Virus record (IMG/VR): IMGVR_UViG_3300010411_000010 | Coordinates: 1 to 29,152 of that record | Length of the DNA stretch: 29,152 bases | Origin: a virus | Strand: one strand, 5' to 3' | In this document: piece after piece, positions 1-24,173 of the stretch | Position numbering within the stretch: the first letter of the stretch is position 1 | How the letters are laid out: each line of letters opens with the position of its first letter | Notes under the pieces: model-generated | Told to the model about the DNA's origin: nothing | The model's input: the letters and a program-made list of their open reading frames with translations, nothing else | Database searches by the model: none | Translations under genes and position numbers: made by a program

Positions 1-23
1 AAGACATACTGCACCTCCGTCTA

Positions 24-52
24 TAAAGTTTCAAGACAAGACAAAGTATAAT
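24..52 (+). promoter_or_regulatory. Weak candidate sigma70-like promoter
   Basis: A perfect TATAAT lies at 47-52, 16 bases upstream of the first start codon and just ahead of AAGAAGG. The hexamer 17 bases further upstream (TAAAGT, 24-29) is a poor -35 match. It would serve the small gene at 69 and perhaps the tRNA cluster behind it. The -10 alone is the evidence, in AT-rich DNA, so this is a weak call. Confidence 0.3.
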
Positions 53-68
53 AGAAAGAAGGTACGAG

Positions 69-278
69 ATGGCGAGGAAAACTATTAGAGATTTATTTGC
101 AGAAAGTTTTGAACGTCGGCAAGAATTAGAGTCTGAAAATTATGCTCTTGATAATTATGAACAGTGTTTAAGAGACAATTGTTTACACTCAGAAGAGTAC
201 ACAATCTTAGACGGCAATGTGCTCTTGACATATTGTGGTATTTGCGATACTCTTCTTAATCATACAGACTTAGATTAA
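69..278 (+). CDS. Small cysteine-containing hypothetical protein (69 aa)
   Basis: Unrecognised. The start is supported by AAGAAGG six bases upstream of the ATG. The N-terminal half is charged and probably helical. The C-terminal half has two cysteine pairs, C-X4-C followed after about 17 residues by C-X2-C (around residues 33-59), which could bind one zinc ion. It directly precedes the tRNA cluster and is probably cotranscribed with it. It is one of several cysteine-rich small proteins in this operon. No function is assigned; only the coding call is confident. Confidence 0.75.
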   Translation: MARKTIRDLFAESFERRQELESENYALDNYEQCLRDNCLHSEEYTILDGNVLLTYCGICDTLLNHTDLD

Positions 279-283
279 CAACT

Positions 284-358
284 AGACCTGTCGCCAAGCG
301 GTAAGGCACAAGGCTTTGGTCCTTGCATCCCTAGGTTCGAATCCTAGCAGGTCTGCCA
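284..358 (+). tRNA. tRNA-Gln (anticodon UUG)
   Basis: Full cloverleaf. Acceptor AGACCTG (284-290) pairs with CAGGTCT (348-354), followed by discriminator G and encoded CCA (356-358). Anticodon stem CAAGG (309-313) pairs with CCTTG (321-325) around loop CTTTGGT, giving anticodon TTG (316-318), which reads CAA. The T-loop GTTCGAATC is present. First of four tandem tRNAs; a phage copy would supplement decoding of CAA codons. Confidence 0.96.
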
Positions 359-360
359 AT

Positions 361-443
361 GGGGGAATCGCATAGTGGCAATTGCGCGGCGCTGTAAACG
401 CTGTCCTTCGGGTTCCCTGGTTCGAGTCCAGGTTCCCCCACCA
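361..443 (+). tRNA. tRNA-Tyr (anticodon GUA), class II
   Basis: Acceptor GGGGGAA (361-367) pairs with TTCCCCC (433-439), then A and encoded CCA (441-443). Anticodon stem CGGCG (387-391)/CGCTG (399-403) closes loop CTGTAAA, so the anticodon is GTA (394-396). A long variable arm before the T-arm makes the gene 83 nt, as expected for bacterial class II tRNA-Tyr. It follows tRNA-Gln after two bases, so both are probably processed from one transcript. Confidence 0.96.
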
Positions 444-450
444 AATATTT

Positions 451-527
451 CAGAGTGTGGCGCAGTTTGGTAGCGCGCCTACCTTGGGCGTAGGATGTCG
501 GAGGTTCAAATCCTCTCACTCTGACCA
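451..527 (+). tRNA. tRNA-Pro (anticodon UGG)
   Basis: Acceptor CAGAGTG (451-457) pairs with CACTCTG (517-523), then A and encoded CCA (525-527). Anticodon stem CCTAC (478-482)/GTAGG (490-494) closes loop CTTGGGC, giving anticodon TGG (485-487). D-loop and T-arm are intact (GGAGG TTCAAAT CCTCT). Third member of the tandem tRNA array. Confidence 0.96.
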
Positions 528-536
528 AACTTGATC

Positions 537-623
537 GCGGGTATGGTGGAATTGGTAGACACCAGGGACTTAAAATCCCTTGGCAGCAATGCCGTGAAGG
601 TTCAAATCCTTCTATCCGCACCA
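537..623 (+). tRNA. tRNA-Leu (anticodon UAA), class II
   Basis: Acceptor GCGGGTA (537-543) pairs with TATCCGC (613-619), followed by A620 and encoded CCA (621-623). Anticodon stem AGGGA (564-568)/TCCCT (576-580) closes loop CTTAAAA with anticodon TAA (571-573), which reads UUA and UUG. The long variable arm (GGCAGCAATGCC) is typical of tRNA-Leu. Last of the four tRNAs; the next gene starts 30 bases downstream. Confidence 0.96.
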
Positions 624-652
624 ACTTTATTTAAACTTCATAGGAGAATTAA

Positions 653-883
653 ATGGATAATACATATAAACATGTTGATGATATGTCGATGGACGAGTTG
701 AAAGCTATTGTTAATTTGATCATTGAGCTTGACTCTTTGGCAGAAGACGAGCAGCCTGAAAAGCAGATGGAGCTGGTCACTGCACTTCAGACTCTCATTC
801 GTACAGAAGAAGCTATTGTTCTTACGAATACTGAAGTTCCGGTTGAGCCTAGTGTAGATAATGATGCTCTTGAAGTGGAATAA
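653..883 (+). CDS. Small acidic hypothetical protein (76 aa)
   Basis: Unrecognised. A clear ribosome binding site AGGAG (642-646) sits six bases before the ATG. The product is strongly acidic, with a predicted helical core (residues 13-55, regular Leu/Ile spacing) and an acidic, probably disordered C-terminal tail. It has no cysteines, membrane segment or catalytic motif. It is the last gene before the hairpin at 892-957 and therefore ends the first small transcription unit with the tRNAs. The coding call is supported by ribosome binding site and position; the function is unknown. Confidence 0.75.
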   Translation: MDNTYKHVDDMSMDELKAIVNLIIELDSLAEDEQPEKQMELVTALQTLIRTEEAIVLTNTEVPVEPSVDNDALEVE

Positions 884-891
884 ATAAATTT

Positions 892-957
892 GAAAGGCCG
901 GTCGTAGTTGCAGTTGAGCCTACCTCCTGTTCAGCAAATACTACTGACCGGTCTTTC
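892..957 (+). ncRNA. Long hairpin RNA element with CCUCC-containing loop
   Basis: Arm 892-903 pairs fully with 946-957 (12 bp, one G-U). Past a one-base bulge at 945, GTAG (904-907) pairs with CTAC (941-944), and TTGC (908-911) with GCAA (934-937) after an internal bulge. The roughly 22-base apical region holds CCTACCTCCTGT (919-930), which includes CCUCC, the anti-Shine-Dalgarno core. A weak T run (964-967) follows. It lies between the stop at 883 and the promoter at 966. It may be an intercistronic terminator, a stable 3' end or a small RNA. The structure is seen; the role is inferred. Confidence 0.55.
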
Positions 958-965
958 ATCCCGTT

Positions 966-993
966 TTGTTATGCGCGATCGCGCTAGGATAAT
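966..993 (+). promoter_or_regulatory. Predicted sigma70-type promoter with palindromic spacer
   Basis: TTGTTA (966-971) and GATAAT (988-993) are separated by 16 bases. Transcription would begin near 1000, leaving a very short leader containing AGGAAAG (1004-1010) ahead of the ATG at 1014. The position, just upstream of the nuclease gene and just downstream of a hairpin, fits the head of a second transcription unit. A TATACT at 998-1003 is an alternative -10, but it would place the start inside the ribosome binding site and lacks a -35. Confidence 0.5.
973..984. promoter_or_regulatory. Perfect 12-bp palindrome, candidate operator
   Basis: GCGCGATCGCGC (973-984) is a perfect two-fold palindrome lying entirely between the predicted -35 and -10 of the promoter at 966-993, in otherwise AT-rich DNA. 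That is a standard place for a dimeric repressor site. No second copy was noticed by eye. It contains a GATC site, so adenine methylation is another possible role. The symmetry is direct; operator function is inferred. Confidence 0.4.
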
Positions 994-1013
994 CATCTAT
1001 ACTAGGAAAGTAA

Positions 1014-1907
1014 ATGCTTACAAATCTGAATAATACACCGGACATAATGGTTGATGTCCTTAATGATCAGCCATACCATCATGCCGGGAGCGCAGATTAT
1101 TCTGCTACATCTTTGGTTATGTCACCACGCCAGCTTCAATTGAAGAAAAGGTATGGTGATAGGATCAAAGACGATGTTCAAGATCGTTGGTACATCTTTC
1201 TCGGCAATGCTCTTCATGAGTACATTGAGCGTGCTCTCGCTAAGATGCCCAACAAATATATTGTTGAACGTAAAATAACAGAGTTCATTAAAGATCGTAA
1301 AGTCGTAGCTAAACTCGATGCTTATGATGTGGAAAATGACATACTCTATGATCATAAATCTGCAACGCATTGGGCATGGGGCGATCCTGCTAAAGAAGAA
1401 TACGAACAGCAGTTGAATATCAATGCGTGGTTCATGCGCCAAGCTGGATACCAACCAGTTAAAGCTATATTAAATATGCTGACCAAAGATTGGTCTGCGG
1501 GTATGGCTAAATTCAAAGGCGAAGACGAGTATCCGCCGAACCCAATGTGGGAACTTGATGTACCCCTCTGGTCTGAACAAGAACAAGAAGACTTTATTAA
1601 TCAGCGTCTTGATATGCACATGGAGCATGAAGAAACTTCAGATGAAGATCTTCCGTTCTGTACTAATGATGAGATGTGGGCTAAAGATTCGACTTGGGCA
1701 GTTAAAGCTCCCGGTGTGTACAAAGCGAAACGTGTACTTAAGACTAAGAAAGAAGCTGAAGATTGGTTGGCGGCAAGTCGTACGGCTAGACCAGACTGGT
1801 ACATTGAAGAACGCCCAGGTGAGCGCACTAGGTGTGCGCAGTACTGTAATGTAAATAAGTTTTGTAATCAGTACCAAGAATATTTGGACGCCAGTAAGGA
1901 TGGATAA
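1014..1907 (+). CDS. PD-(D/E)XK (RecB/Cas4-like) nuclease
   Basis: Probable DNA exonuclease of the PD-(D/E)XK superfamily. Visible motifs in order: conserved His/Glu helix (LHEYIERAL, 68-74), E86, D102 in the KLDAYD strand, then D113-H-K115 (the D/ExK pair) and the QQL helix (Q132-Q133). Cysteines C216, C274, C278 and C284 (the last three CX3CX5C) are arranged like the C-terminal metal or Fe-S cysteines of Cas4/AddB-like phage nucleases, although the usual N-terminal cysteine is absent. Start supported by AGGAAAG. First gene of the second unit; the next gene begins immediately after its stop (TAAATG). It could act in recombination or host-DNA degradation. The C-terminal coding sequence is partly duplicated at 2120-2166. 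Confidence 0.85.
   Translation: MLTNLNNTPDIMVDVLNDQPYHHAGSADYSATSLVMSPRQLQLKKRYGDRIKDDVQDRWYIFLGNALHEYIERALAKMPNKYIVERKITEFIKDRKVVAKLDAYDVENDILYDHKSATHWAWGDPAKEEYEQQLNINAWFMRQAGYQPVKAILNMLTKDWSAGMAKFKGEDEYPPNPMWELDVPLWSEQEQEDFINQRLDMHMEHEETSDEDLPFCTNDEMWAKDSTWAVKAPGVYKAKRVLKTKKEAEDWLAASRTARPDWYIEERPGERTRCAQYCNVNKFCNQYQEYLDASKDG
1846..1892 (+). repeat. Direct repeat, source copy in the nuclease C-terminus
   Basis: Positions 1846-1892 encode the cysteine tail of the PD-(D/E)XK protein (residues NVNKFCNQYQEYLDA). They match 2120-2166 at 43 of 47 bases by manual alignment, in the same reading frame. This looks like a partial gene duplication about 274 bp apart. Confidence 0.85.
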
Positions 1908-2084
1908 ATGTTTGAGACAGTAAAAATAACTGAAGAATTGGGGCTTGAGTATGCAAAATACTTAGAGTCTGTCAGAATACATAATTCTACTCAGTCAATA
2001 AATATTGATATGGATGATGTTCAAGATCTCATCAAAGGTCTTATAGACTTACTTACACCACCATTTATAAACGGAGATGATTAA
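1908..2084 (+). CDS. Small acidic hypothetical protein (58 aa)
   Basis: The ATG directly abuts the stop of the nuclease gene, with AAGGATGG inside that gene's end acting as ribosome binding site. The 58-residue product is acidic and predicted helical, with a leucine/isoleucine-rich stretch (DLIKGLIDLL, about 40-49) near the C-terminus, and ends in a short PPF segment. No known domain is visible. Its position between the nuclease and the chimeric microgene suggests coupled translation. No function is assigned. Confidence 0.65.
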   Translation: MFETVKITEELGLEYAKYLESVRIHNSTQSINIDMDDVQDLIKGLIDLLTPPFINGDD

Positions 2085-2085
2085 A

Positions 2086-2181
2086 ATGCGAATCAAACAA
2101 CACGCATGTGAATACTGTGGTAATGTAAATAAATTTTGTAATCCGTATCAAGAATATTTGGAGGCCGAGAATGAAAATTAG
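2086..2181 (+). CDS. Chimeric cysteine-rich microprotein (31 aa)
   Basis: A 31-codon ORF with GGAG (2073-2076) at good spacing. It has three visible sources. Residues 1-12 (MRIKQxxCExCG) match the start of the Zn-ribbon gene at 2400. Residues 13-26 match the nuclease C-terminus (NVNKFCNxYQEYL). The last six residues (EAENEN) match the end of the gene at 2171. Cysteines C8, C11 and C18 could bind metal. Its final codons carry the GGAGG and ATG of the next gene, so it may serve mainly as a translational-coupling leader. It could be a functional microprotein or a duplication relic; the sequence cannot decide. Confidence 0.55.
   Translation: MRIKQHACEYCGNVNKFCNPYQEYLEAENEN
2120..2166 (+). repeat. 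Direct repeat, second copy inside the microgene
   Basis: Matches 1846-1892 at 43 of 47 bases, in frame. A second, shorter repeat unit, GAGGCYGAGAATGARAATTR, occurs at 2161-2181 and 2390-2410 (18 of 21 bases). Each copy contains a purine-rich ribosome binding site, the start codon of the following gene and the stop codon of the preceding one. Confidence 0.8.
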
Positions 2182-2410
2182 ATTAGACCAAATTACTTTA
2201 ACTCCAACAATGAACGGTTGGTACTTAGAGGCTACAGCTATAATGGATGAGTGTGGTGTAGAAACTTCTTTCGTAATTGAGGATGCTAAAGAGTCGCATA
2301 CAGATTTGCCTAGCGTAGTTGACACGATTAGAAAAAATCCAGGTGCTTTTAAATGGTATATTTATAATCGTGCAGGTGCAGTAAATACAGAGGCTGAGAA
2401 TGAGAATTAA
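2171..2410 (+). CDS. Hypothetical protein (79 aa)
   Basis: Starts inside the end of the microgene at 2086, with GGAGG (2159-2163) at ideal spacing. The pattern suggests a small mixed alpha/beta protein: a strand-like N-terminus (MKIRLDQITLTP), a central W-Y-L-E segment and a helix near residues 45-56. It ends with EAENEN, the same last six residues as the upstream microprotein, because the coding ends are repeats. One cysteine; no membrane segment. Function unknown. It overlaps the next gene by 11 bases, so translation is probably coupled. Confidence 0.7.
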   Translation: MKIRLDQITLTPTMNGWYLEATAIMDECGVETSFVIEDAKESHTDLPSVVDTIRKNPGAFKWYIYNRAGAVNTEAENEN

Positions 2411-2555
2411 ACAGCGTGTGTGTGAAAATTGTGGTTACGTGTACAGCTTTACAGGTCCGTTGAAGAACACGGTGTGTCCTGAGTGTGGTGAAAAACCTAA
2501 ATGTACAGGTTCTAATTATAAGCAGATGGGCTACCGGTCAACATCAGAGAGGTAG
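2400..2555 (+). CDS. Zinc-ribbon microprotein (51 aa)
   Basis: The ATG lies inside the last codons of the preceding gene, with AGAGG upstream. Cysteines C8-x2-C11 and C26-x2-C29 form a classic rubredoxin-like zinc ribbon (CENCG ... CPECG), with a further cysteine at 35. A basic, polar tail follows (residues 36-51). The first 12 residues match those of the chimeric microprotein at 2086. Such small zinc ribbons in phages may bind nucleic acid or RNA polymerase, but nothing here specifies the partner. Fold likely; role unknown. Confidence 0.7.
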   Translation: MRIKQRVCENCGYVYSFTGPLKNTVCPECGEKPKCTGSNYKQMGYRSTSER

Positions 2556-2559
2556 TCGT

Positions 2560-2670
2560 ATGCAAAAGTTTACCTGTTTAAATTGTGGTAGCATATTTTA
2601 TTATGACACTTCAGTTTGTGAACGTCCGTGTCCTCATTGTGGGCATTGGCATGATTGTAACGATAGTTAG
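2560..2670 (+). CDS. Zinc-ribbon microprotein (36 aa)
   Basis: The start at 2560 is chosen over an upstream in-frame ATG at 2485 because AGAGAGG (2546-2552) precedes it and the upstream extension would lie inside the previous gene. The product has C6-x2-C9 and C24-x2-C27 (CLNCG ... CPHCG), a minimal zinc ribbon, plus a His/Cys-rich end (HWHDC) that might join a metal site. It follows the 51-residue zinc ribbon after four bases, and the pair may be paralogous. Function unknown. Confidence 0.65.
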   Translation: MQKFTCLNCGSIFYYDTSVCERPCPHCGHWHDCNDS

Positions 2671-2678
2671 GAGATAGT

Positions 2679-2921
2679 ATGTTTGGAAGTTATAGTTACC
2701 CATTGGAAACGGATTCGCGTAAGCCAGATTATGCGCAGTTAATTCTTAATGAGGAGAGGACAATCAAACGTTGTACTGAAATACTCGATCAGTTTAAAGA
2801 ACTTGAGGATTTGCACTGTTCTATGGACTGTACTACAGCTGTCATTGGCTCATTGCACATACAAATTGTAGAACGCCAAAGTAAAATTGATCACTGGATT
2901 AAAGAACAAGAAATAAAGTAA
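2679..2921 (+). CDS. Hypothetical helical protein (80 aa)
   Basis: Start supported by AGGAG shortly upstream. After a polar N-terminus, the protein is mostly charged helix, with heptad-like Leu/Ile spacing from about residue 20 to 76, consistent with a short coiled coil. Two cysteines lie mid-chain. The stop overlaps the HNH gene start as TAATG (2919-2923), so the two are probably translationally coupled. No known family is recognised; it may be an accessory to the nuclease, but that is only positional. Confidence 0.65.
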   Translation: MFGSYSYPLETDSRKPDYAQLILNEERTIKRCTEILDQFKELEDLHCSMDCTTAVIGSLHIQIVERQSKIDHWIKEQEIK

Positions 2922-3325
2922 TGTCATTAAAGGTTTTAATTGATCCGGTACCATACAGAATAACACCCAAAGAAAGAGGAATGATCCTTGGTGGAATACG
3001 TACAGCGTTCTCCCGCAGTAGATGGGCGGCACGAGTTAGAGAACGAGCACTCAGTACCAAGCGAGGCCCGCGTGGTGGTAAATTATACCACTGCGCAAAC
3101 TGTGGTGGACTGGCAACTGCTTCCGGCATTAACGTTGATCATATTACTCCTGTGGTCGACATTGGGTTAAAGTACACAGACTATACTTGGGATCAATTAA
3201 TCGGCAGACTGTGGTGCGATGAATCAAACCTTCAAGTCTTATGTAAGAAGTGCCACGATAAAAAATCGAAAGAAGAAAGAAATGCCAGAAAAAAAATACG
3301 ACAGTGCATTAAAAAATTTAACTAA
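2921..3325 (+). CDS. HNH endonuclease (134 aa)
   Basis: Metal-dependent DNA endonuclease. The HNH signature is complete: C58-x2-C61 knuckle, D73-H74 with following I-T-P, N103, and C108-x2-C111-H112 closing the structural zinc site. The basic N-terminus (residues 18-54) and C-terminus (112-134) suit DNA binding. HNH proteins in phages often assist terminase or behave as homing nucleases. This one lacks an obvious extra DNA-binding domain and sits in the early operon, not next to terminase, although the genome ends are not visible here. Translation is coupled to the preceding gene by TAATG, and its end overlaps the next gene by 44 bases. Confidence 0.9.
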   Translation: MSLKVLIDPVPYRITPKERGMILGGIRTAFSRSRWAARVRERALSTKRGPRGGKLYHCANCGGLATASGINVDHITPVVDIGLKYTDYTWDQLIGRLWCDESNLQVLCKKCHDKKSKEERNARKKIRQCIKKFN

Positions 3326-3548
3326 AGAGAAACTATATAGAATGTTTAGAGGTACGAAATCAAATTACCCAGCATACTCTGAACACGATGTCTGCAAGGC
3401 TGTCGGTGAAGCACTAGAGAATATGGCATATCATGTAAACTGTTATGACGAAGAACAGTATGACGCTGCGATGAAAAAATTTAACTTCTGGAGAAGCTTC
3501 CATGAAGAGCGCGGAACGTATGACGACAGAGCATACGGAGAAAGGTAA
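3282..3548 (+). CDS. Hypothetical protein (88 aa)
   Basis: The start at 3282 is preferred over an in-frame ATG at 3219 because the purine-rich GAAAGAAGAAAG precedes it and the longer form would overlap the HNH gene by over 100 bases. The product is charged and aromatic-rich, probably all-helical, with a basic N-terminal third (residues 1-30) and an acidic centre. No motif is recognised. It overlaps the HNH gene in a different frame and the next gene by 47 bases, typical of the compressed layout here. Confidence 0.6.
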   Translation: MPEKKYDSALKNLTKEKLYRMFRGTKSNYPAYSEHDVCKAVGEALENMAYHVNCYDEEQYDAAMKKFNFWRSFHEERGTYDDRAYGER

Positions 3549-3696
3549 GCTGTTAAGCATGGCTGAGTTTAAAGCTAAACAGCTTGCTGAGCATACTAAA
3601 GATATAGCAGATGTGGCTATGCTTCTTATAGAAGAAAGAATATCTCTTTGGACTAGTATTAATAAATTTAGAGCAAAGCTATATGACAGAAAATAA
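3502..3696 (+). CDS. Hypothetical helical protein (64 aa)
   Basis: The start at 3502 is supported by GGAGA (3490-3494) at good spacing; 3520 and 3559 are in-frame alternatives with weaker sites. The protein is predicted almost entirely helical. Residues 20-62 have amphipathic spacing and a hydrophobic patch (VAMLLIEERI), but this is too short and charged to be a membrane segment. It overlaps neighbours at both ends (47 and 14 bases). No family is recognised. Confidence 0.55.
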   Translation: MKSAERMTTEHTEKGKLLSMAEFKAKQLAEHTKDIADVAMLLIEERISLWTSINKFRAKLYDRK

Positions 3697-3877
3697 AGTT
3701 ATAAATCTTATGGCACACAAGCGTAAGAAAGAAGCAGAAGAGGAAGCTAGATTGACAGCTGATATCATCGCGCACTCAAAAGCTTTAAACTGGGAAGGGA
3801 CATCTCAAGAATACTTAGACTGCTTTAAAATATTTGCTCCTCCACGAGGGGATAAAGGAACACAGCACGATGAGTAG
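3683..3877 (+). CDS. Hypothetical protein (64 aa)
   Basis: The ATG lies in the last codons of the previous gene with only a weak GAG upstream, so translation probably depends on coupling. A lysine/glutamate-rich helix (about residues 12-35) is followed by a short W/Y-containing segment. No cysteines, signal or membrane segment. Its end overlaps the MazG-like gene by eight bases. Function unknown; the coding call rests on tight packing and frame. Confidence 0.55.
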   Translation: MTENKVINLMAHKRKKEAEEEARLTADIIAHSKALNWEGTSQEYLDCFKIFAPPRGDKGTQHDE

Positions 3878-4223
3878 TTTTGGAACAAGAGAATGGTTGT
3901 ACCTCAATGACTATCAAAGTAGAGCTTGCTCCTTTAATGACACCTTCGATAAAACTTTTAGAGGGGAAGTAGGTCTACTCTCAGGTATAGCAGCAGAGGC
4001 TGGTGAAGTTTGTGCTGTAATGCAGAAGAAAATACGAGACAATACTTCTATAGAAGAAGCCAAGCGTGATCGCATGAAAGAGCTAGGCGATCTGCTCTGG
4101 TACATATCCGTATATGCAAAGCACATAGGGTTTGACTTAGAAGACATTGCACGTTACAATATACGTAAGTGTACTGATCGTGCAGCCAGGGGAGTTGTCA
4201 ATGGTTCCGGCAATAACAGATAA
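3870..4223 (+). CDS. MazG-like nucleotide pyrophosphohydrolase (117 aa)
   Basis: All-alpha NTP pyrophosphohydrolase, which converts nucleoside triphosphates to monophosphates and pyrophosphate with Mg2+. The family metal-binding pattern is visible: E43-x2-E46 (AEAGE) and E71-x2-D74 (ELGDLLWY), followed by a helical C-terminus. The length fits single-domain phage MazG-like proteins. The start at 3870 is chosen because AAAGGA precedes it and the homologous core begins soon after; an upstream in-frame ATG at 3834 lies inside the previous gene. Proposed roles in phages include dNTP pool cleaning and altering host (p)ppGpp. The substrate cannot be read from sequence. Confidence 0.85.
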   Translation: MSSFGTREWLYLNDYQSRACSFNDTFDKTFRGEVGLLSGIAAEAGEVCAVMQKKIRDNTSIEEAKRDRMKELGDLLWYISVYAKHIGFDLEDIARYNIRKCTDRAARGVVNGSGNNR

Positions 4224-4392
4224 GGTTCTTGAAGCAAAGATGTTTTATTTACTATACCTGCATAGGCCAAATAAATTTCTGGACTATAGTAAATTTGGAC
4301 AGGACTACCCGTTACCATCTAGTGTACGATGCAGTCCGTGTGAAGATCGTAAAGAACGCGGGGTTGTGCGTGGAACAGGTGGAGATCTGTAG
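4201..4392 (+). CDS. Hypothetical protein (63 aa)
   Basis: The start is set by AGGGGAG just upstream of the ATG at 4201; an in-frame ATG at 4147 lies deep inside the MazG-like gene. An N-terminal helix (residues 5-20) is followed by a basic, aromatic-rich middle and a glycine/arginine-rich tail. A single CxxC (CSPC, around residues 43-46) is present without a second pair. No family is recognised. It overlaps MazG by 23 bases, implying coupling. Confidence 0.55.
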   Translation: MVPAITDKVLEAKMFYLLYLHRPNKFLDYSKFGQDYPLPSSVRCSPCEDRKERGVVRGTGGDL

Positions 4393-4395
4393 CTG

Positions 4396-4818
4396 ATGAG
4401 ACAAAGCATAGTTATGAAAGTTATTATAGCGGGTTCTAGAGATCTAGATTTAAATCAATGGTCAGATAAAGAAGAGTTAATTGAATTCGCAATTAAGCGT
4501 AGCGGGTTTGATATAACTCAAGTTATAACCGGGTGCGCTCGCGGAATTGACCGAGTTGGGGCAGGTCTCGGAGCGTATCTGTACGGAGATGATAATGTCA
4601 TAGGTTTTCCAGCTGACTGGACAAAGCATGGAAAGTCTGCCGGATTTATTCGAAATGTAGAAATGGCGAAAGAGGCTGACGCATTGATCCTTATTTGGAA
4701 TGGACGTAGCTCTGGGTCGGCGCATATGAAATCAGAGATGGTAAAATTAGGGAAACCAATCTACGAAATTATAGAGAATAAATCTAACAATGCAGAAGAA
4801 CACAAATTTAGAATGTAA
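4396..4818 (+). CDS. SLOG-superfamily (YspA/DUF2493-like) protein
   Basis: Rossmann-like nucleotide-binding protein of the SLOG superfamily. The signs are the first strand with IIAGSRD, a central strand and glycine turn (VITGCARGIDRVG, about 61-73), FPADWTKHGKSAG with the charged pocket, the RNVEMA helix and a late strand (DALILIWNG) followed by GSAHMK. The length, 140 aa, fits the YspA-like group. The canonical start could be the internal Met at 4414 (MKVIIAGSRD); 4396 has GGAG at 11 bases, so either is possible. SLOG proteins bind nucleotide-derived ligands and occur in Thoeris and other defence or signalling systems. A sensing or sponge role here is inference. Confidence 0.8.
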   Translation: MRQSIVMKVIIAGSRDLDLNQWSDKEELIEFAIKRSGFDITQVITGCARGIDRVGAGLGAYLYGDDNVIGFPADWTKHGKSAGFIRNVEMAKEADALILIWNGRSSGSAHMKSEMVKLGKPIYEIIENKSNNAEEHKFRM

Positions 4819-4933
4819 TTTTTATAAAAAAGGATACTGCATCCATCCGGATGGACCTAGGTGGTGCAGATACAAAGGTCTTGGTAAAACGAGATGTAAA
4901 TATTTTGGAGATAGCAATGACAAAAATGAATAA
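4790..4933 (+). CDS. Basic four-cysteine microprotein (47 aa)
   Basis: A 47-codon ORF spanning the gap between the SLOG gene and the one-TM gene, overlapping both (29 and 17 bases). Cysteines C9, C17, C26 and C36 (C-x7-C-x8-C-x9-C) sit in a basic, aromatic context. The regular spacing suggests one zinc site. The ribosome binding site is weak (AGAGAA about 13 bases upstream), so it may rely on coupling. The absence of another gene in about 100 bases and the cysteine pattern support coding. Function unknown. Confidence 0.5.
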   Translation: MQKNTNLECNFYKKGYCIHPDGPRWCRYKGLGKTRCKYFGDSNDKNE

Positions 4934-5180
4934 AGATATAACGCAAGAACCATTGACACGTAGGGACATCTACGAGATTACAGCAGCGTCTGCTAAGATC
5001 GCAGCTACTGAGTTGCTTAAAGAAATCTCTCCTGTTCAAATCAAAGCTGATGCTAAAGGTTTAATGGAGCTTGGTCTGACTCGACTTGGTTTCAAGCCGA
5101 ATTGGAAAGAACGTATTTTCTGTGGCGCAGTAGGCGCTGCCGGAGCTTCCATCGTATGGTTGAACTTCATTTCTTTTTAG
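4917..5180 (+). CDS. One-TM protein upstream of the endolysin, possible holin or pinholin
   Basis: The start at 4917 is supported by TTGGAG six bases upstream; an in-frame ATG at 4851 lies inside the overlapping microgene. The first 60 residues are charged and helical. The last 20 (RIFCGAVGAAGASIVWLNFI) form one hydrophobic segment rich in Gly/Ala, with a charged cluster before it and no cytoplasmic tail after it. It lies nine bases before the M15 endolysin, so a lysis role as a small holin-like or accessory membrane protein is plausible but unproven. The competing holin candidate is at 8265-8693. Confidence 0.6.
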   Translation: MTKMNKDITQEPLTRRDIYEITAASAKIAATELLKEISPVQIKADAKGLMELGLTRLGFKPNWKERIFCGAVGAAGASIVWLNFISF

Positions 5181-5188
5181 GATATAAT
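5160..5188 (+). promoter_or_regulatory. Near-consensus promoter overlapping the endolysin start
   Basis: TTGAAC (5160-5165) and TATAAT (5183-5188) are separated by exactly 17 bases. This is the best sigma70 match noticed in the window. Transcription would start near 5195, inside the first codons of the endolysin (ATG at 5190). It could drive an internally started endolysin (Met at codons 17 and 19) or the downstream genes. The AT-rich ribosome binding region could also produce this by chance. Confidence 0.35.
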
Positions 5189-5189
5189 A

Positions 5190-5597
5190 ATGAAATACTT
5201 TAAGCCTTCTGAATTTAATTGCCCGGATGGTTCGGATATGTGCATGAGTCAAGACTTCCTTGGTTTTTTGGACTTGTCTCGTGATCTGTCAGGTGTCAGC
5301 TACAAGTTGAACTCTGCATATCGCAGTGTTGAACATAACGCTGAGGTCGGTGGCAAGCCTGACTCGGCGCATACTCGTGGTCTTGCTGTAGATATTAGGA
5401 CTAGCAATAGCCGTGAACGTTACAGGATCTTAGTCGGTATGATTATCGCTAGTCTTGTACGTACTGGTCAGATCAGTGATGGGTCTGCCGCCATGGATGC
5501 TTTGACTAATGATGTTACTCGATTCGGAATTGATAAGAACTTTATTCATGTTGATTGCGATACAACGAAAGATCCAGAAGTTATCTGGATGTATTAA
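5190..5597 (+). CDS. Endolysin, peptidase M15 (D-Ala-D-Ala type)
   Basis: Predicted zinc peptidase that cleaves peptidoglycan stem peptides for host lysis. The M15 signature is complete: R45 in SAYRS, the first zinc ligands H61 and D68 in SAHTRGLAVDI, and the C-terminal HVD with H120. The 135-residue length matches single-domain M15 endolysins. There is no signal peptide, so it would depend on a holin to cross the inner membrane. Start supported by AGGATA. It follows a one-TM protein. A near-consensus promoter (5160-5188) overlaps its start. The family call is confident; the exact bond cleaved is not determined. Confidence 0.9.
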   Translation: MKYFKPSEFNCPDGSDMCMSQDFLGFLDLSRDLSGVSYKLNSAYRSVEHNAEVGGKPDSAHTRGLAVDIRTSNSRERYRILVGMIIASLVRTGQISDGSAAMDALTNDVTRFGIDKNFIHVDCDTTKDPEVIWMY

Positions 5598-5615
5598 TTA
5601 TACACAGGTGTTAAC

Positions 5616-5831
5616 ATGGCCAATAAAGAAATTCAGTCACCAAAACAATTCATGTGCATTGATGGTAAAATGCACATAGTTGAAGCAGGACAATTTGTAT
5701 TTGTTCATGACTATAATAACCTCTTGAAGAGGTACAAAAAATTGTTGAAGCTTTGTCGAATTAATGGTTTATTTGATAGCATTAAAAAGACAAAAGAAAA
5801 AGTTCAGCGCATATTTGGAGATAACGTATAA
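5616..5831 (+). CDS. Hypothetical basic protein (71 aa)
   Basis: Start supported by AGGTG upstream. The N-terminal half looks beta-rich (MCIDGKMHIVEAGQFVF), and the C-terminal half is a lysine-rich amphipathic helix (about residues 30-67). No metal motif or membrane segment. It follows the endolysin and is coupled to the next gene by TAATG at 5829-5833, so it may belong to the lysis cluster. The family is not recognised. Confidence 0.6.
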   Translation: MANKEIQSPKQFMCIDGKMHIVEAGQFVFVHDYNNLLKRYKKLLKLCRINGLFDSIKKTKEKVQRIFGDNV

Positions 5832-6127
5832 TGATAGATATTCAAACTTTTGTAGCTGGCTATGTCGTAGCTACTTCTGTTTTATTTACAGCGGCTGTTC
5901 TTTCGATCCCAGTTTTTGCTTGGTTTGATCGTAACAATACTTACACTGCAGACTATTATCCGAGTGCTACTATCAGTAAGCTAAAAAATCCTGAAGAATA
6001 TGCGTGGCTTAAGACCGCCCAATTATACTACCTTGTTAAGGACGTAGCTAAGAAAGAGAATCCTGAGATCACGGATCATGAATTAAAAATGCTTTGGCGA
6101 GAAATCTCTGCAAAGAGGATTGCATAA
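5831..6127 (+). CDS. Single-pass membrane protein (98 aa), possible spanin or holin-like accessory
   Basis: The N-terminus forms one hydrophobic segment (about residues 6-33, GYVVATSVLFTAAVLSIPV) followed by a charged, mainly helical domain, the layout of an N-anchored membrane protein. GGAGA (5817-5821) and a TAATG overlap with the preceding stop support the start. Its location three genes after the endolysin region makes an i-spanin-like or lysis-accessory role conceivable, though the C-terminal part is short and no lipoprotein partner is seen. It ends in a TAATG overlap with the next gene. Confidence 0.6.
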   Translation: MIDIQTFVAGYVVATSVLFTAAVLSIPVFAWFDRNNTYTADYYPSATISKLKNPEEYAWLKTAQLYYLVKDVAKKENPEITDHELKMLWREISAKRIA

Positions 6128-6276
6128 TGATACCAGTGACTAGACTTGAAGAATGGCAGCACTTCTGCCCTGTCGTTGAAGACCATATTGAAAAGTATGC
6201 TAACGCTCAATACGGGGACAGAGGTATCGAGGAGATAGATAAAGATGCAAATAGAAGACAAACTCAAGATTGCTAA
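6127..6276 (+). CDS. Small acidic hypothetical protein (49 aa)
   Basis: The start at 6127 is fixed by the TAATG overlap and AGAGG upstream (6114-6118); the longer in-frame form from 6094 lies inside the previous gene. The product is acidic and mostly helical, with two isolated cysteines and no recognisable motif. Its end overlaps the next gene by 32 bases, which adds to the coupled chain 5616-6463. Function unknown. Confidence 0.55.
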   Translation: MIPVTRLEEWQHFCPVVEDHIEKYANAQYGDRGIEEIDKDANRRQTQDC

Positions 6277-6463
6277 TGATCTTATTTGTAGAACTTGTGC
6301 ACATGTCCGGAGACGAATGAAAGCGTGCAGTAGTTGTAAGCTACACATGAATTATACAGCAGACGATAGAGTAGATATCTTCGATGTGCGTTATAACAGA
6401 TGGTGCCGCGTACCAAAGACAGGCGCAAGAATTTGTGAACTAAAAAGACGACGAGGGTTTTAA
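6245..6463 (+). CDS. Zinc-finger-like cysteine-rich protein (72 aa)
   Basis: GAGGAG lies upstream of the ATG. Two CxxC knuckles (C15-x2-C18 and C28-x2-C31) close together in a strongly basic setting form a likely zinc site; two later cysteines in the C-terminal half may add a second. The spacing resembles phage zinc-binding proteins that touch nucleic acid, but no named family is evident. It overlaps the preceding gene by 32 bases and ends directly before the DHH gene (TAAATG), so translation is probably coupled. Confidence 0.6.
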   Translation: MQIEDKLKIANDLICRTCAHVRRRMKACSSCKLHMNYTADDRVDIFDVRYNRWCRVPKTGARICELKRRRGF

Positions 6464-7393
6464 ATGATACATTGTTTTTACCATAACGATATGGACGGCC
6501 ATTGTGCTGGTGCTATCGTTAAGATGAAACATCCCGATGCTGTAATGCATGAGATTACTTACGGATATGACTACGAGAAAGATGTCATTGCTAACCTTGA
6601 CGGGAATGACGCCGAGATTTTTGTAGTGGATTTCAGGTTTGAAACATCTGAGTTCCAAGACTTGATTGCTAGAGGTTGCATCATTCATTGGTGCGACCAC
6701 CATGAAACAGGAATTAAGATAGCAGCAAAGTCGAAACTGAATGACGCAGATAGCGTATACCTCAGCATTGATGGTATGCAGAATAAGAGGAAAGCTGGAG
6801 CACAGCTGACCTGGGAGTATCTCTACCCAGAAAAACCTCTGCCCTTGATTGTTCACCATGTATCTCAGTGGGATATTTGGAATCATTCAGATCCGCATAC
6901 GATTCCATATCAACGTGGTCTTGAACTCTCCGGTCGTACAAATCCAGTGGATGCCGATGCCGTGAAGTTGTGGAAGGCGTACATTGAAAATAGTCGAGAG
7001 GGTAATCGTCGAGACTTTAATGAGCTCGACGCGTTGTTAAATATGGGTCTGACTGGTGAAGCTATGAAAGCACAGTATGATACGTTCATAGGTTCTTCTG
7101 CTTATTATATCCCAGAATGGGAAGGATTTCGTACTGTAGCGCTTAACTCTCGTGCGTTAGATAGTTATGTGATCTTTGAGCACGCAGATAAGTGGGAAGA
7201 ATTTGATCCGGAAGTTCTTATCTGGTATCATCAATCACCAACTGGTCAATGGAAATATTCGATTAGGAATTATCCTGGAACAGACACATCCGTGATTGAA
7301 CTTGCCGAAAAATACAATGGCGGTGGGCATAGAAAAACTGCTGGGTTCACAACTGACGAGCTTATCATATTCCCTATACAGGAGGACGCGTAA
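6464..7393 (+). CDS. DHH-family phosphoesterase (NrnB/oligoribonuclease-like)
   Basis: Metal-dependent phosphoesterase of the DHH/DHHA1 superfamily. Visible motifs: H7-N-D9-x-D11 (motif I), D56 (VVDF), D78-H79-H80 (the DHH triplet), D137 in SQWDIW, and the C-terminal GGGH (286-289) with K-T-A-G-F of DHHA1. Order and length (309 aa) match NrnA/NrnB-type enzymes that hydrolyse oligoribonucleotides or linear and cyclic dinucleotides. Start: TAAATG after the previous gene with GAGGG upstream. It could recycle short RNAs or destroy a signalling nucleotide; the substrate is not evident. It is coupled to the next gene by TAATG (7391-7395). Confidence 0.88.
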   Translation: MIHCFYHNDMDGHCAGAIVKMKHPDAVMHEITYGYDYEKDVIANLDGNDAEIFVVDFRFETSEFQDLIARGCIIHWCDHHETGIKIAAKSKLNDADSVYLSIDGMQNKRKAGAQLTWEYLYPEKPLPLIVHHVSQWDIWNHSDPHTIPYQRGLELSGRTNPVDADAVKLWKAYIENSREGNRRDFNELDALLNMGLTGEAMKAQYDTFIGSSAYYIPEWEGFRTVALNSRALDSYVIFEHADKWEEFDPEVLIWYHQSPTGQWKYSIRNYPGTDTSVIELAEKYNGGGHRKTAGFTTDELIIFPIQEDA

Positions 7394-7584
7394 TGTCAAT
7401 TACAGTTAATTGCCCATACTGCTGCACTGTAGCTCAAATGGATGAAGACGGGTGCTGCGATCACTGTGGTCGATACCTCGATGAGGATGATGCTCCTGAA
7501 TTTGAAGATGAAATAAAACCTTTTGAAGATACATGCATCGGGTGCAATTGTAATTGCGATGGTGAATGTGATCATGGAGAATAG
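7393..7584 (+). CDS. Acidic double-cysteine-cluster protein (63 aa)
   Basis: A strong AGGAGG precedes the TAATG overlap start. The N-terminal zinc ribbon has C7-x2-C10 and C22-x2-C25 (CPYC ... CDHCG). A glutamate/aspartate-rich linker follows, then a second dense cysteine cluster near the C-terminus (CIGCNCNC ... C, about 48-60) that could bind another metal. Acidic overall, so less likely to bind DNA directly than the basic zinc proteins nearby. It directly follows the DHH enzyme and may be its partner or a transcription accessory. Function unknown. Confidence 0.7.
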   Translation: MSITVNCPYCCTVAQMDEDGCCDHCGRYLDEDDAPEFEDEIKPFEDTCIGCNCNCDGECDHGE

Positions 7585-7588
7585 TACT

Positions 7589-7849
7589 ATGAGTTTTAAA
7601 ACCCCCGCACTTCCTACTCTGCCAAAGATTAAGTCGGCATGGGAGATGGCCCTCTGGATGGCAGCATTGAATATCTCTTACGCACTGATCGTAGGCAGTT
7701 TCTCTGCCGTTGCCCATAAGCTGGCCGCATGGAAACATGCACGAGACGCAAAGAAGATGCACGCTAAGATCATGGAGCAGATGAAGACTCCAGAGGTTAT
7801 GAACCAGACAGCTGAAATCAAGTTTGAAGAGGTGGAAGCTAATGCGTAA
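7589..7849 (+). CDS. Hypothetical protein with one hydrophobic segment (86 aa)
   Basis: The start at 7589 follows GGAGA at 7575-7580; a longer in-frame form from 7523 would lie inside the previous gene. After a proline-rich N-terminus, residues 15-40 form a hydrophobic helix (MALWMAALNISYALIVGSFS) that may be a transmembrane segment. A lysine/histidine-rich, then acidic, helical tail follows. It is a possible membrane protein near the operon end and overlaps the next gene by eight bases. The family is not recognised. Confidence 0.6.
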   Translation: MSFKTPALPTLPKIKSAWEMALWMAALNISYALIVGSFSAVAHKLAAWKHARDAKKMHAKIMEQMKTPEVMNQTAEIKFEEVEANA

Positions 7850-8123
7850 TGAATTGCTTAACGATGCGCGGCGCGAGCAGGAACTTATTGAAGAACTTCG
7901 TGAAGAAGCTGCTCGAGCCGAACGACTCTTCATTGAGCTTAGCGACGTCATGAACTCTCGCGACCAAAAACTGAGTGCTCTTAACAATCTGCAAGGCGAC
8001 ATGAACGCTAAAATGCAGAAGGGCGCTGATGAAATCCTTGATGATATCCGCACTGGTAAGGTTGGTCTGGTCGATGTCGAGACTGGTGAACCCATTACTG
8101 TTACACTCTTTCAACGACGTTAA
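7842..8123 (+). CDS. Coiled-coil protein (93 aa), last gene of the plus-strand operon
   Basis: GAGGTGG precedes the ATG at 7842; an upstream in-frame ATG at 7824 is internal to the previous gene and would displace that site. Residues 5-70 have charged heptad-like repeats (RREQELIEELREEAARAERLF) typical of a coiled coil; the last 25 residues look like a short beta hairpin. No enzyme motif. It ends 27 bases before the major terminator. It may be structural or an oligomer partner of the preceding membrane protein; function unknown. Confidence 0.65.
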   Translation: MRNELLNDARREQELIEELREEAARAERLFIELSDVMNSRDQKLSALNNLQGDMNAKMQKGADEILDDIRTGKVGLVDVETGEPITVTLFQRR

Positions 8124-8137
8124 TAACTGTCTATAAT
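8109..8137 (+). promoter_or_regulatory. Promoter-like element aimed at the terminator
   Basis: TTTCAA (8109-8114), 17 bases, and a perfect TATAAT (8132-8137). The start near 8144 would transcribe only a few bases before the hairpin at 8150. The -10 is strong and the -35 weak. It could give a roughly 40-nt terminated RNA or, on read-through, antisense to the late genes. It may also be a chance AT-rich match. Confidence 0.25.
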
Positions 8138-8149
8138 ATAGATACAAGG

Positions 8150-8184
8150 AAGCCCCTAGGAACATAAGTTCTTAGGGGCTTTTG
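8150..8184 (+). terminator. Rho-independent terminator of the plus-strand operon
   Basis: A 14-bp stem: 8150-8163 pairs with 8168-8181, one G-U, loop ATAA, with GCCCC/GGGGC in the core and TTTT ending the 3' arm (8180-8183). It lies 27 bases after the last plus-strand stop. On the minus strand the T tract is poor, so it mainly stops rightward transcription at the convergent boundary. Confidence 0.9.
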
Positions 8185-8188
8185 CTTT

Positions 8189-8254
8189 AACTAGTATAAG
8201 CTAGTTCTCTCACGGTTCACCCGTGTATTGTTATCTCCGGGGGAGACATCCCGG
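8189..8254 (-). terminator. Tandem small hairpins at the end of the minus-strand late unit
   Basis: Three short stems lie between the late-gene stop (8265) and the main terminator: AACTAG/CTAGTT (8189-8194, 8201-8206), CACGG/CCGTG (8211-8215, 8221-8225) and CCGGG/CCCGG (8237-8241, 8250-8254). None has a good T tract on the minus strand. Together with the 14-bp hairpin they make about 105 bases of structured boundary that could stop or stabilise the late mRNA 3' end. Confidence 0.45.
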
Positions 8255-8264
8255 TATATGAGAT

Positions 8265-8693
8265 TTATTTTAATCTTGATCCAAACCAACTACCGACTAA
8301 AGTCCAAGCAGGAATGGCTGCTCCTGTTGGTGGTGTGCCCATCACGAACGAATAAGTAGAATCAGCGATAGCAACACCGCAGCACATAGCTGTGACTACA
8401 GGGCGTATAGCTGCACGAAGTGATACGACCCATTGATGTGGTTCTCCAACTACATCACGATTAAAGTATTTAATCTGTGCTTCCATTTGTTTGGTTTGCG
8501 CATCGACATATTTAACCATCACTTCAGGATTAGTCGTAGCAAGAGTAGAAAGAGTAGCTTCTGGTGTATCAGTACCAGCAGGTAAGAATTTCTTTTTAAT
8601 AAAGTCAAAGGCAGGAGGAATGATCATTCCGGCTACTGCCCCAACTGGGCCAAGTAAAGAGCCGACAGCTCCAAGTACAGATTCAAATCCCAT
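8265..8693 (-). CDS. Holin-like protein (GTA_holin_3TM-like)
   Basis: Predicted membrane protein for timed lysis. A glycine/hydrophobic N-terminal segment (residues 4-30) precedes a polar middle. RAAIRPVVTAMCCGVAIAD (about 93-111) and the C-terminal region (from about 115, ending in WTLVGSWFGSRLK) make two further hydrophobic stretches, giving the three-segment pattern and R-x2-IRP motif of the GTA_holin_3TM family. The 142-aa length fits. The start overlaps the giant gene's stop as TAATG, with GGAGG upstream. Last gene of the late operon and best holin candidate. The family call is by pattern only. Confidence 0.65.
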   Translation of the reverse strand: MGFESVLGAVGSLLGPVGAVAGMIIPPAFDFIKKKFLPAGTDTPEATLSTLATTNPEVMVKYVDAQTKQMEAQIKYFNRDVVGEPHQWVVSLRAAIRPVVTAMCCGVAIADSTYSFVMGTPPTGAAIPAWTLVGSWFGSRLK

Positions 8694-11600
8694 TAGTCCT
8701 CCAGCGCCTTAACCTTACGGATGGCGTCTTTAATAATTTGCTGTTCACGTTTTTCAATTTTCTTCAAGCGCTCAGATTCTTTTAAGACACGATCACTGCG
8801 CATGATACTGTTCTTCAGCTTACGATATTTTCGAAGTTGTTTGTCAGCCGACTTCATGATTGAAACTTTACGAGCATAGCCCGGGTTATCTTCACGGAAA
8901 GCTTGAAACTTTTTAGCTCCACCTTGCTTTGCTCTCTTTGCAGCTTCTTCAATACCGGCTACATCAGAACGAATATCAGTATACTTATGCAGTGTACTAT
9001 AAAAGTTAATCGTTCCAAGATATCTACGTACGATTGGAAGTTCAGGTAAGAACTCTTTCGTTCCTTTAAACTCTGTGTCTGTGAACATGGCATCAGCGAT
9101 ATGCCCAGCAGCTTGAGTAGTTCTCAGAGCTGTCTTACCAACACCACCGAAGTACGATTCGACAAAGTGTTCGATGGACTCTGGACTGATATCGATTACA
9201 CCTTTACTAGTTTCAGTAGTACCGCCAAGCGAGTTGAGCATATTTGCGATCATCAATGCTGGAGGGCTAATCGTAGACCAGTATCGTTCAGCATCCGGAT
9301 AGTCATACTTAACCCAGGAAGGAACATCAGGCATAATCTTCTGACCAAAGAATCCTTTGTTAGCTTCAAGCTGAAGTGGCGGACGGAAAATAGTTGGAAC
9401 TAAAGTTGTCCAACCAGCCTCCGGTGAACCAACTGGGCTGAAGTTATCGAACATCGAGTACACAACTTCTGTCGCAGCTCCGAGCGGCTTCTTGTCAGAG
9501 AATAGTACTTGATCAATTTGCTGACCAAGAACAGTCAAAACGTTATAGCCATAAGGGAGTGGAATCTTAACGTACATTCCGTCAGTGCCCGGGAGCATAA
9601 ATACCATGTTGGTATTTTTTACCCAGTCGGGAAGTTTATCGTAGTACGGGATACCATCATCATCATCACCGCCCATAAGTCTGCCGAGCTGCGCCATTAT
9701 CATAGAACTACCTACGAGCATAGGCAGAATGCGATTGCGCATCTTAGGATTGCGAAGGATGGTCTTCATCATCCGCGCAGTACCCTGTATAGAAGCGTTA
9801 CTAAACATGTACAGAGGGCCGAGTAGAGGGCCGAGAGCGCCCCTTCTAGAGAAGTTAACAGTAATGTTTCTAGCAGCACTAGCCGCACGCTCTAAAGCTT
9901 CTTCTTTAGGCATGCCCACTTTCTGCCATGCGTCGGACAGTGTTTTAAACGTAGAGAGGCGAGTCATATTTTCTAGTGTATTACCATACATCTCCATCAT
10001 TTGAATGATGCCGAGTGTAACATTTCTAGGGACATGATAAATTTCACTTTTCCGCGTAGCAGCTTTAACTTCTTTCGTCATTTTATTAGCCAATGATTGA
10101 TAATCATTAAGCCCATATTGTTCTGAAAAGCCACCTCGGAATTGAAATTCGGCTAAAGCCCTCCACCAGTCTTTGTCTAAACTACCGTGCTTATTCTTCG
10201 CATCAGCGTGAATAGTTTTCATAGCTGGTATAAAGTTCTTCCAGAGAGTTCTTCCAACCTTTTGTTTCTCGACCCTGTATTTATTACTAAGACCTTTTTC
10301 ATCCATGATGTTCAATGACGCAGTCATGATATCTCGGATAGGGTTCGTCAGAATAAATGCAGGGTTCAATGTAGTAGCCGCTCTAGCCATAAGACGAGTG
10401 AGCTTACCAATAAATTGAACAACTGGTCCGGCGACATACAGATTATTACCTGTGAACGCCGTCGCCACATTGTGGTCTGCAGCTTTCAGTCGAACCTGAT
10501 AACCATCATTATCAATTACAGTGATAGCATTAGGATCATTCTGGAAAGGATCAGAAGGTTTTTTAAACTCGATACGTCCAGACTTAGAGTTGTACGTCCA
10601 TTTAGGTTTAAGCTTTTCTTTTGTGCCCAGCTCGAAGAAGAAGTTCTCACCCTCGAGATTCTTGTTGTCCTCAATAAGTTTGAGTAAAGCTCGACCAGCC
10701 TCAACTCTAGCGCTTAGAGAGATAACATCTTTAACCTGCTGAATAGTATTAATTGTAGGACTGTCAGGCCTAGAGTCTTCAGTACGACCTAGTGTGCGCT
10801 TAAGCTTAAGCTTTGGACCTTTGACTCTGTTCTTATATCTAGAGTCCATAGACTCCATCATATTTTCCCAGCCCTTCAAAGCAACATAATGATCAAAGGA
10901 GTTTTCAATATTTTTAATTTGATCTTCAGGAAGAAGACGAGAATCGCGCATGATCTCAATCTGCTTACGGCCAATCTTATCCATCTGTTCACTGGCGGCC
11001 TTAAGATTTTTAGTGACTTTAATACCGCCATTCCCGGATAAGATCTTTTCCGCCTTCTCTGTGGACATGCCCGAAGGAGCAGGATCTGTGTTGCCCCGCT
11101 TAGCCAAATGCTCATTACGTTCTTTAGCATGTCGAGCTATAAGGTATGTGTCGATGTCGTATTGAACTTGTTTAGCAGAACCACCGTGCTCTTTGGTATA
11201 CGCCTGCATATGCTCGATAAGAGGTTTCACAAACTTACGATCAAAATCTTTAAGAAGTTGACTCTCAATGTTAGGAATAGCTTCTTCAATAGCGTATACA
11301 TTAGAATCAATATTTACTGTGCCACCTTTTTCTTTAACGGCCTGCACCATCATACGAATAGGATGATAGTAGTCTTGAAATAAAGTCTTGACTTTATCCG
11401 GCCACCTATAATCAAGAATACCTTCTGGAGTAAGGAAAGATTTACTGCTCTTGTTCATAGCTCTGAGCAGCGCAGTCGAAGCTGTATCAGTAAAATCTTC
11501 TACTGTCTTTTTAACCTTGGTAGAATAAGCTTCTTTCTGAGCAGCTGTTTGTTTATGAACTATACCTTCTTTAACTGAAGGTTTAGCTTTGGGCTTAGCA

Positions 11601-15057: not shown

Positions 15058-16152
15058 TTAATAAATTTTAGGTGTAACTACAACACCAGGAATACGCGGA
15101 TCAACGGGTATACCTTGAGGCATTTGAACTCGAGATCGAATACCTTGTACTTTATCGAGAGACTTTAAAAACTCTTGTTCCTGTGCAGTGGCACGAGCCG
15201 CGTTCTCCTGCTGTTGAATTACCCTCGGGTCAAGTTCAACCTTAGGCTGAACAGCAGGGATACCTGCAGCTTGGGACTGAGAAAGACCTTGACTTTTTAA
15301 AATATTTTCAAGCGTAGACTTGCGGTCACGAAGTTTATCCATGACATCCGCGCCTTCACGGATGGCCTGCTTAGCCGCACCGAGGCGCTGTTCACGCCAT
15401 TGCTGTTCAGCACTAGCTGGACTAATTTTTATTCCAGACTCGTAATATTTTTTAGCCGCACCTTGAGCTATTGCAGTAGCTTGTTGTTTAGCCGAATCTT
15501 GATCGTCACTAGTCCAGCGCTTACCTTCGGTATCAATCCAAATTTTATCTCCCTCTGCGCCATTGGGGTCTTGAACTTCTCTAAAATTTCGATCAGTTTT
15601 AATTCGATCAATAATCTGCTGCTCAACTTCAGTACGTACATCCTCTGCGCCCTGCCTACGAAGACGGTCTTTTTCCTGCGCTTCTATAGACCGGAGCCGG
15701 GCTGCTTCTTGAGCTGTAGCTGCAGCGGACCCGAACTGCGGAGTACTCTGAAACTTAGTTGCTGCTCGAATCTTAAGAAGATTTGGACTCGACTCTACAA
15801 GTTTTCCATTCGGCAACTTAATTGTGTATCGAGATATGCGGCCAGTACTATTATCTCTAGTAGACGATACAATCTTAGAACCTTCCGGCAAAGCTTGGTC
15901 AACTACGCGTTGCGCAGCAGCTTCGTCAACGTCTACTAAAACTAAATCACTACGGATTTTATCATCGAGCGCTTCTACATCTTCTTTTTTTAACGCTCCG
16001 CGTTCAGCCCTAGCAATAGCCGCCCTCTCAGCATTGGCGCGAGCTTGCCGTAAATCAGTCTGATCAATGTATTCTTCACGTTTCCGAGAAGCTAAATCAT
16101 GAGCTTGGCGATAGAGATCACCTTGCATTCCAGCTAATGTAATACTAGCCAT
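15058..16152 (-). CDS. Ejection/internal virion-type coiled-coil protein (364 aa)
   Basis: Start supported by GAGGAG nine bases before the ATG. Very rich in Ala, Gln, Arg and Glu. Long predicted helices (about 20-65 and 160-185) flank a small beta-like domain around residues 70-140 (VDQALPEGSKIVSSTRDN and following); more helix (about 240-340) leads to a proline-rich end. No signal, membrane segment or catalytic motif. It lies between the giant protein and another internal-type protein, the position of short-tail ejection proteins. Role by position and composition only. Confidence 0.6.
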   Translation of the reverse strand: MASITLAGMQGDLYRQAHDLASRKREEYIDQTDLRQARANAERAAIARAERGALKKEDVEALDDKIRSDLVLVDVDEAAAQRVVDQALPEGSKIVSSTRDNSTGRISRYTIKLPNGKLVESSPNLLKIRAATKFQSTPQFGSAAATAQEAARLRSIEAQEKDRLRRQGAEDVRTEVEQQIIDRIKTDRNFREVQDPNGAEGDKIWIDTEGKRWTSDDQDSAKQQATAIAQGAAKKYYESGIKISPASAEQQWREQRLGAAKQAIREGADVMDKLRDRKSTLENILKSQGLSQSQAAGIPAVQPKVELDPRVIQQQENAARATAQEQEFLKSLDKVQGIRSRVQMPQGIPVDPRIPGVVVTPKIY

Positions 16153-24148: not shown

Positions 24149-24173
24149 TTTTGTCTCCTAAATGTCTGAATGA

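Follow-up and report, generated by a model that had tools for sequence, protein, structure and literature searches.

Intergenic hairpins in related phage systems

The RNase III sites of bacteriophage T7 are stem-loops of about 60-70 nt that lie between genes and consist of a lower helix, an internal loop, an upper helix and a short loop. One of them, R1.1, is described in excerpts of PMC6121014 as a 60-nt RNA that originates between genes 1.0 and 1.1 and has an asymmetric internal loop of 4/5 nt. Cobaviruses are T7-related phages whose two arms run in opposite directions and are split by a bidirectional terminator (PMC6775973, in part). In the alpha-r14/cuckoo family of anti-Shine-Dalgarno small RNAs, which includes NfeR1, three hairpins each carry an identical ultraconserved CCUCCUCCC, according to sections of PMC10746234. 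For the element analysed here, no description was found in titles and abstracts of the literature on anti-Shine-Dalgarno or cuckoo RNAs and phage-encoded anti-Shine-Dalgarno small RNAs, nor in those on RNase III processing in T7 and lambda and on non-coding RNA of Zobellviridae and cobaviruses.

We analysed a hairpin in a viral IMG/VR record, 29,152 bases long, which was covered in full and is referred to as the window. The hairpin has the general layout of the T7 sites, but its lower helix is longer (18 bp) and its internal loop is symmetric (4x4). With Rho-independent terminators, such as the one between the cobavirus arms, it has in common that a strong stem lies between genes of a phage whose two arms converge; it differs from them by the 40 nt between the arms of its continuous 14-bp stem, a poor U tract and a negative terminator score. 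Like the alpha-r14/cuckoo RNAs it exposes CCUCC in a hairpin loop and has variable stem sequences, but it is one hairpin instead of three, carries ACCUCCU (CCUCCU, not CCUCCUCCC), and its loop is not kept in relatives. According to our analysis, the hairpin is real, strong and recurrent within a phage lineage, and is most likely an ordinary intergenic element of RNA processing or stability.

Genomic setting

Genes of the right arm of the window lie on the minus strand and code for a portal-type protein with matches to phrog_332 (head-tail adaptor) and phrog_1216 (portal), a major head protein (phrog_1357), structural proteins and an internal virion protein (phrog_511). The left arm, on the plus strand, carries four tRNAs, small ORFs, a Cas4/PD-(D/E)XK exonuclease (phrog_2139), an HNH endonuclease, an endolysin-like protein and a DHH phosphoesterase. 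The window phage is a T7-supergroup-like podovirus, and it resembles T7 in its virion genes. The named phages nearest by portal are 29.6-33.4% identical (best 15 of 52 matches), and the group probably belongs to the family Zobellviridae. A terminator-like hairpin (8148-8183) with a 4-nt loop and a TTTT tail is found close to where the convergent arms meet, in line with the arrangement in cobaviruses.

The hairpin sits on the plus strand in a 130-nt gap (884-1013) before the exonuclease gene (1014-1907, plus strand; phrog_2139, E 7.9e-41), which starts 55 nt past it. The tRNA genes for Gln, Tyr, Pro and Leu (284-623) lie upstream in the same direction, the last of them 267 nt from the hairpin, with a 76-aa ORF (653-883, plus strand) in between that has an AGGAG site and no PHROG match. 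The initial annotation had considered a role in stabilizing or ending the tRNA transcript; the hairpin could indeed stabilize or process such a transcript, but it is this ORF and not the tRNAs that directly precedes it. Reading frames of at least 20 aa across the hairpin encode just 21-41 aa and none is longer than 41 aa, so a coding explanation was set aside. In the remainder of the gap, between the hairpin and the exonuclease start, there is a perfect 12-nt palindrome, GCGCGATCGCGC (973-984), which holds the sole GCGATCGC of the window (0.23 expected).

Predicted fold of the hairpin

RNA folding predicts a stem-loop at 891-958 whose two helices comprise 25 bp, with one bulge, an internal loop of 4x4 and an apical loop of 9 nt. 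In the lower helix, the 5' arm (891-908) is predicted to form 18 pairs, including U891-A958, with the 3' arm (940-958), with a single bulge at U945. The internal loop (909-912/936-939) parts it from an upper helix of 7 bp (913-919/929-935), which spans 913-935 with its loop and contains two of the three G-U pairs of the stem (914-934 and 918-930; the third is 897-952). The apical loop CUACCUCCU (920-928) contains CCUCC at 923-927 and has an unpaired probability of 0.93-1.0. The minimum free energy of 880-970 is -36 kcal/mol (z -7.2), none of 200 shuffles being equally stable, and a second shuffle set gave z -7.4 for the hairpin. Among distinct 80-nt tiles of the window it takes second place, and just one other non-coding stem there has a score of at least 26. 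In these models the hairpin is confirmed as a genuine, strong structured element. Rfam 15 returned nothing above the gathering threshold in the whole window except the four tRNAs, and at E<=10 gave three chance matches within 630-1030, none of them covering the hairpin.

Folding had been proposed as a check when the locus was first annotated, and a stable hairpin with z of about -7 was obtained. The 12-bp stem with one G-U pair noted there is present (892-903/946-957, with G897-U952), and U891-A958 is an additional pair. The bulge noted there is of one base, and the extension behind it has 5 pairs (904-908/940-944) and not 4. The apical region was said to be open and to present CCUCC; this motif is unpaired with a probability near 1, but the open part is just 9 nt, the upper helix having been missed.

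Hairpins at the equivalent position in relatives

Four records with related exonucleases (35-41% identical) and portals (52-56% identical) were used as relatives (G017, G032, G008 and G007). In three of them a stem-loop is located directly before the orthologous exonuclease, with sequences and loops that differ from those of the window. These are a stem-loop with a 20-bp arm in G017 (28829-28920), one with an 18-bp arm in G007 (31414-31525), and three in G008 (15771-15950), two of which are within 100 nt of the exonuclease. As whole elements, the G008 hairpins reach z values of -3.4 to -3.7 and that of G007 only -2.2, and the apical parts of the G007 and G017 hairpins are shaped differently. 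G032 has no gap, the exonuclease start adjoining the stop of the upstream gene, which from its sequence is presumably thyX. Further upstream of the G032 exonuclease, a non-coding tRNA region (L053 2300-3906) holds several long stem-loops, both between the tRNAs and behind them. Rfam 15 found three tRNAs and nothing else at the four loci.

As a background rate, we counted hairpins of score at least 28 within 100 nt upstream of a gene, which were present for 10 of 75 genes in G017, 5 of 79 in G032, 5 of 66 in G008 and 9 of 77 in G007. On these all-gene rates, occurrence at three of four exonucleases has a P of about 0.003, for a comparison of only five genomes. Genes were called with a simple home-made program that picks ORFs greedily; it overlooked the G032 exonuclease, which was counted as a miss, and the left neighbour of the G017 hairpin is a doubtful minus-strand ORF. 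Among genes with gaps of at least 100 nt, three of three has a P of 0.011, or of 0.005 if the exonuclease is excluded from the rates. The exonuclease is the only one of the 35 window genes called that is preceded by hairpins in the window as well as in relatives.

A wider set of 80 exonuclease loci was reduced to 47 distinct ones by merging those with an identical 30-aa exonuclease stretch and dropping L085, which is G032. Such a hairpin precedes the exonuclease in 3 of the 47, again G017, G008 and G007, and is absent from the other 44; for other genes with gaps of at least 60 nt the count is 8 of 202. Such a hairpin is therefore tied to the phage lineage and does not accompany this type of exonuclease as a rule. 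The exonuclease gene was found in none of eight named phages chosen for a related portal. In a ninth, Baldr, chosen for its exonuclease, the upstream reading frame reaches the start and leaves no hairpin gap. Extending the portal scan turned up no additional carrier of the exonuclease in the 23 records listed, many of them short fragments, from among 80 new loci and the earlier ones. Bacterial and archaeal genome contigs contributed three exonuclease loci (28-35% identical), and a scan with the DHH phosphoesterase revealed no relative.

No copy of the hairpin sequence was detected in any record searched. The loop 16-mer matched 13 stretches in viral contigs, none with a surrounding hairpin, the 18-mer of the 3' arm matched none, and for the 5'-arm 11-mer the window's own locus was the only one among 183. 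A nucleotide search of 640-1010 in named phages gave a single 41-nt match (E 0.1), and a DNA search of 640-1020 in the records of 36 relatives yielded five chance-level matches of 14-22 nt.

Termination and ribosome-site binding

Given the strong stem, the hairpin might terminate or attenuate transcription in part, so that less of it would continue from the tRNA region into the exonuclease gene. An in-stem UCUUUCAUC puts some U directly after the G+C-rich part, and a promoter-like TTGTTA/GATAAT follows at 966-993, which we rejected as indistinguishable from chance, such sites being no commoner in 1-9000 than in shuffles. Against this reading, a d'Aubenton-Carafa-type score is -43 to -63 for three stem limits compared with -1.6 for the plus-strand hairpin at 8150-8181. 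The hairpin also scores badly on the minus strand (two stem limits), and a terminator scan for loops of 3-8 nt did not return it. Rho-independent terminators are marked by a G+C-rich stem, an immediate U tract and a positive d-score, and this combination is not found here, the tail being UCCCGUUUUG. Both the weak T tract and the statement that the hairpin is not a simple terminator were thus well judged in the initial annotation. In addition, the stem ends 11 nt before the start codon in G007 and 21 nt before it in G008, which leaves no room for a promoter, so that an efficient terminator is unlikely there, as it would silence the exonuclease gene. We therefore consider partial termination unlikely.

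One function first put forward for the hairpin was the binding of AGGAG sites, as a small RNA or 3'-UTR element. As an anti-Shine-Dalgarno RNA similar to alpha-r14/cuckoo, it would bind AGGAGG-type ribosome sites in cis or trans through its exposed ACCUCCU. Folding does leave CCUCC unpaired, and duplexes between the loop and translation starts average -6.4 kcal/mol; the corresponding values are -5.5 if the loop is shuffled and -4.1 for random 28-mers of the genome. The target prediction proposed for CCUCC accordingly showed pairing with ribosome sites, as any CCUCC can, but 24 of 300 shuffled loops pair as well with translation starts. Of the 66 loop strands of non-coding hairpins, 9 contain an anti-Shine-Dalgarno 5-mer, where 5.0 would be expected. 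The motif is single and not threefold, and a promoter of its own was not seen. Lack of loop conservation had been named beforehand as grounds for giving the idea up, and CCUCC is missing from all five stem-loops of the equivalent gap in the three relatives (one in G017, three in G008 and one in G007), two of which contain a partial 5-mer (CTCCT in G008, ACCTC in G007). Since the loop is not conserved and its pairing barely exceeds that of shuffled loops, the anti-Shine-Dalgarno reading fails, and we regard it as highly improbable.

RNA processing and stability

The recurrence of a hairpin with unlike sequence suggests an ordinary RNA-processing or stabilizing element, not a special RNA that binds ribosome sites. 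T7-type RNase III signals are intercistronic stem-loops that have an internal loop and some 20 bp or more, and the hairpin, with 25 bp and a 4x4 internal loop between the ORFs at 653-883 and 1014-1907, agrees with this description. The T7 sites have the same general build, a long RNA duplex between genes that is interrupted by an internal loop, and we therefore favour processing by RNase III, with passive stabilization in second place. That the hairpin is an intercistronic processing or stability element of a polycistronic phage transcript, like the T7 sites, is a tentative reading to which we give nearly even chances. Folding of T7 sequence at the presumed R-site coordinates gave a similar layout at several of the ten sites. 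By eye, the upper-stem sequence of several folded T7 sites (AAGGTC..GGCCTT) does not occur in the window hairpin, where the upper stem is GUUGAGC/GUUCAGC. To our knowledge, such a sequence is not required of sites in other phages. The symmetric loop, the longer lower helix, the weaker and unlike elements in relatives and the gapless G032 argue against processing.

We posit that one transcript may run from the region of the tRNAs and small ORFs into the exonuclease gene, and that the hairpin would fold on its own there into a long RNA duplex with an internal loop. Most likely it would be cut by RNase III of the host or by a related type of nuclease, which would separate the upstream RNA of tRNAs and small genes from the exonuclease mRNA, and the defined or structured ends left by the cut may set the stability of each part. 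Structure and position alone would be kept, while stem and loop sequences could drift freely between relatives. The short distance between stem and start codon in G007 and G008 indicates that the hairpin belongs to the leader of the exonuclease mRNA.

The same evidence of position and structure would fit a passive hairpin at a 5' leader or 3' end, which is not cut and shields RNA from exonucleases or degradosome entry, stabilizing the upstream RNA or the exonuclease mRNA. The ribosome site of the window exonuclease is equally accessible with and without the hairpin (0.57), which agrees with such a role, but passive protection alone leaves the internal loop unexplained, and we consider it somewhat unlikely. 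Masking of this ribosome site was rejected on these values for the window only; access is likewise unchanged in G017 (0.43), and rises without the hairpins from 0.48 to 0.67 in G008 and from 0.27 to 0.38 in G007. A fast-evolving leader RNA, so far unrecognised and tied in this lineage to the recombination exonuclease, acting as a timing or dosage switch through processing or contact between loop and ribosome site, with structure and place but not sequence being kept, seems distinctly unlikely to us. Very unlikely is a DNA-level element (a cruciform, replication start or recombination site) with an incidental RNA fold. The inverted repeats would form in DNA too, and the adjoining gene is a recombination-type exonuclease, but the G-U pairs in the stem suit RNA better than DNA and the relatives have no arm sequences in common.

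If RNase III processing is true, T7-style RNA processing by structure alone would extend to a T7-like phage lineage that is uncultivated. What recurs is the position and the pairing but not the sequence, and homology searches would therefore miss such an element. A short CCUCC loop without conservation should not be read as an anti-Shine-Dalgarno RNA.

Other stem-loops were seen in the same genomes. In the window, a strong short hairpin (GGGAGAG..CTCTCCC, 24173-24197) separates two minus-strand ORFs close to the gene for the major head protein and is part of the most stable 80-nt tile. G008 has very long stems at 448-531 and 5913-6050, with arms of 23 and 29 bp and loops of 38 and 80 nt, the latter being absent from the list of non-coding hairpins. 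Intergenic stem-loops in G017 (37275-37338) and G007 (20321-20379) have GGCACGTT and CGTGCCTTA in common in their arms.
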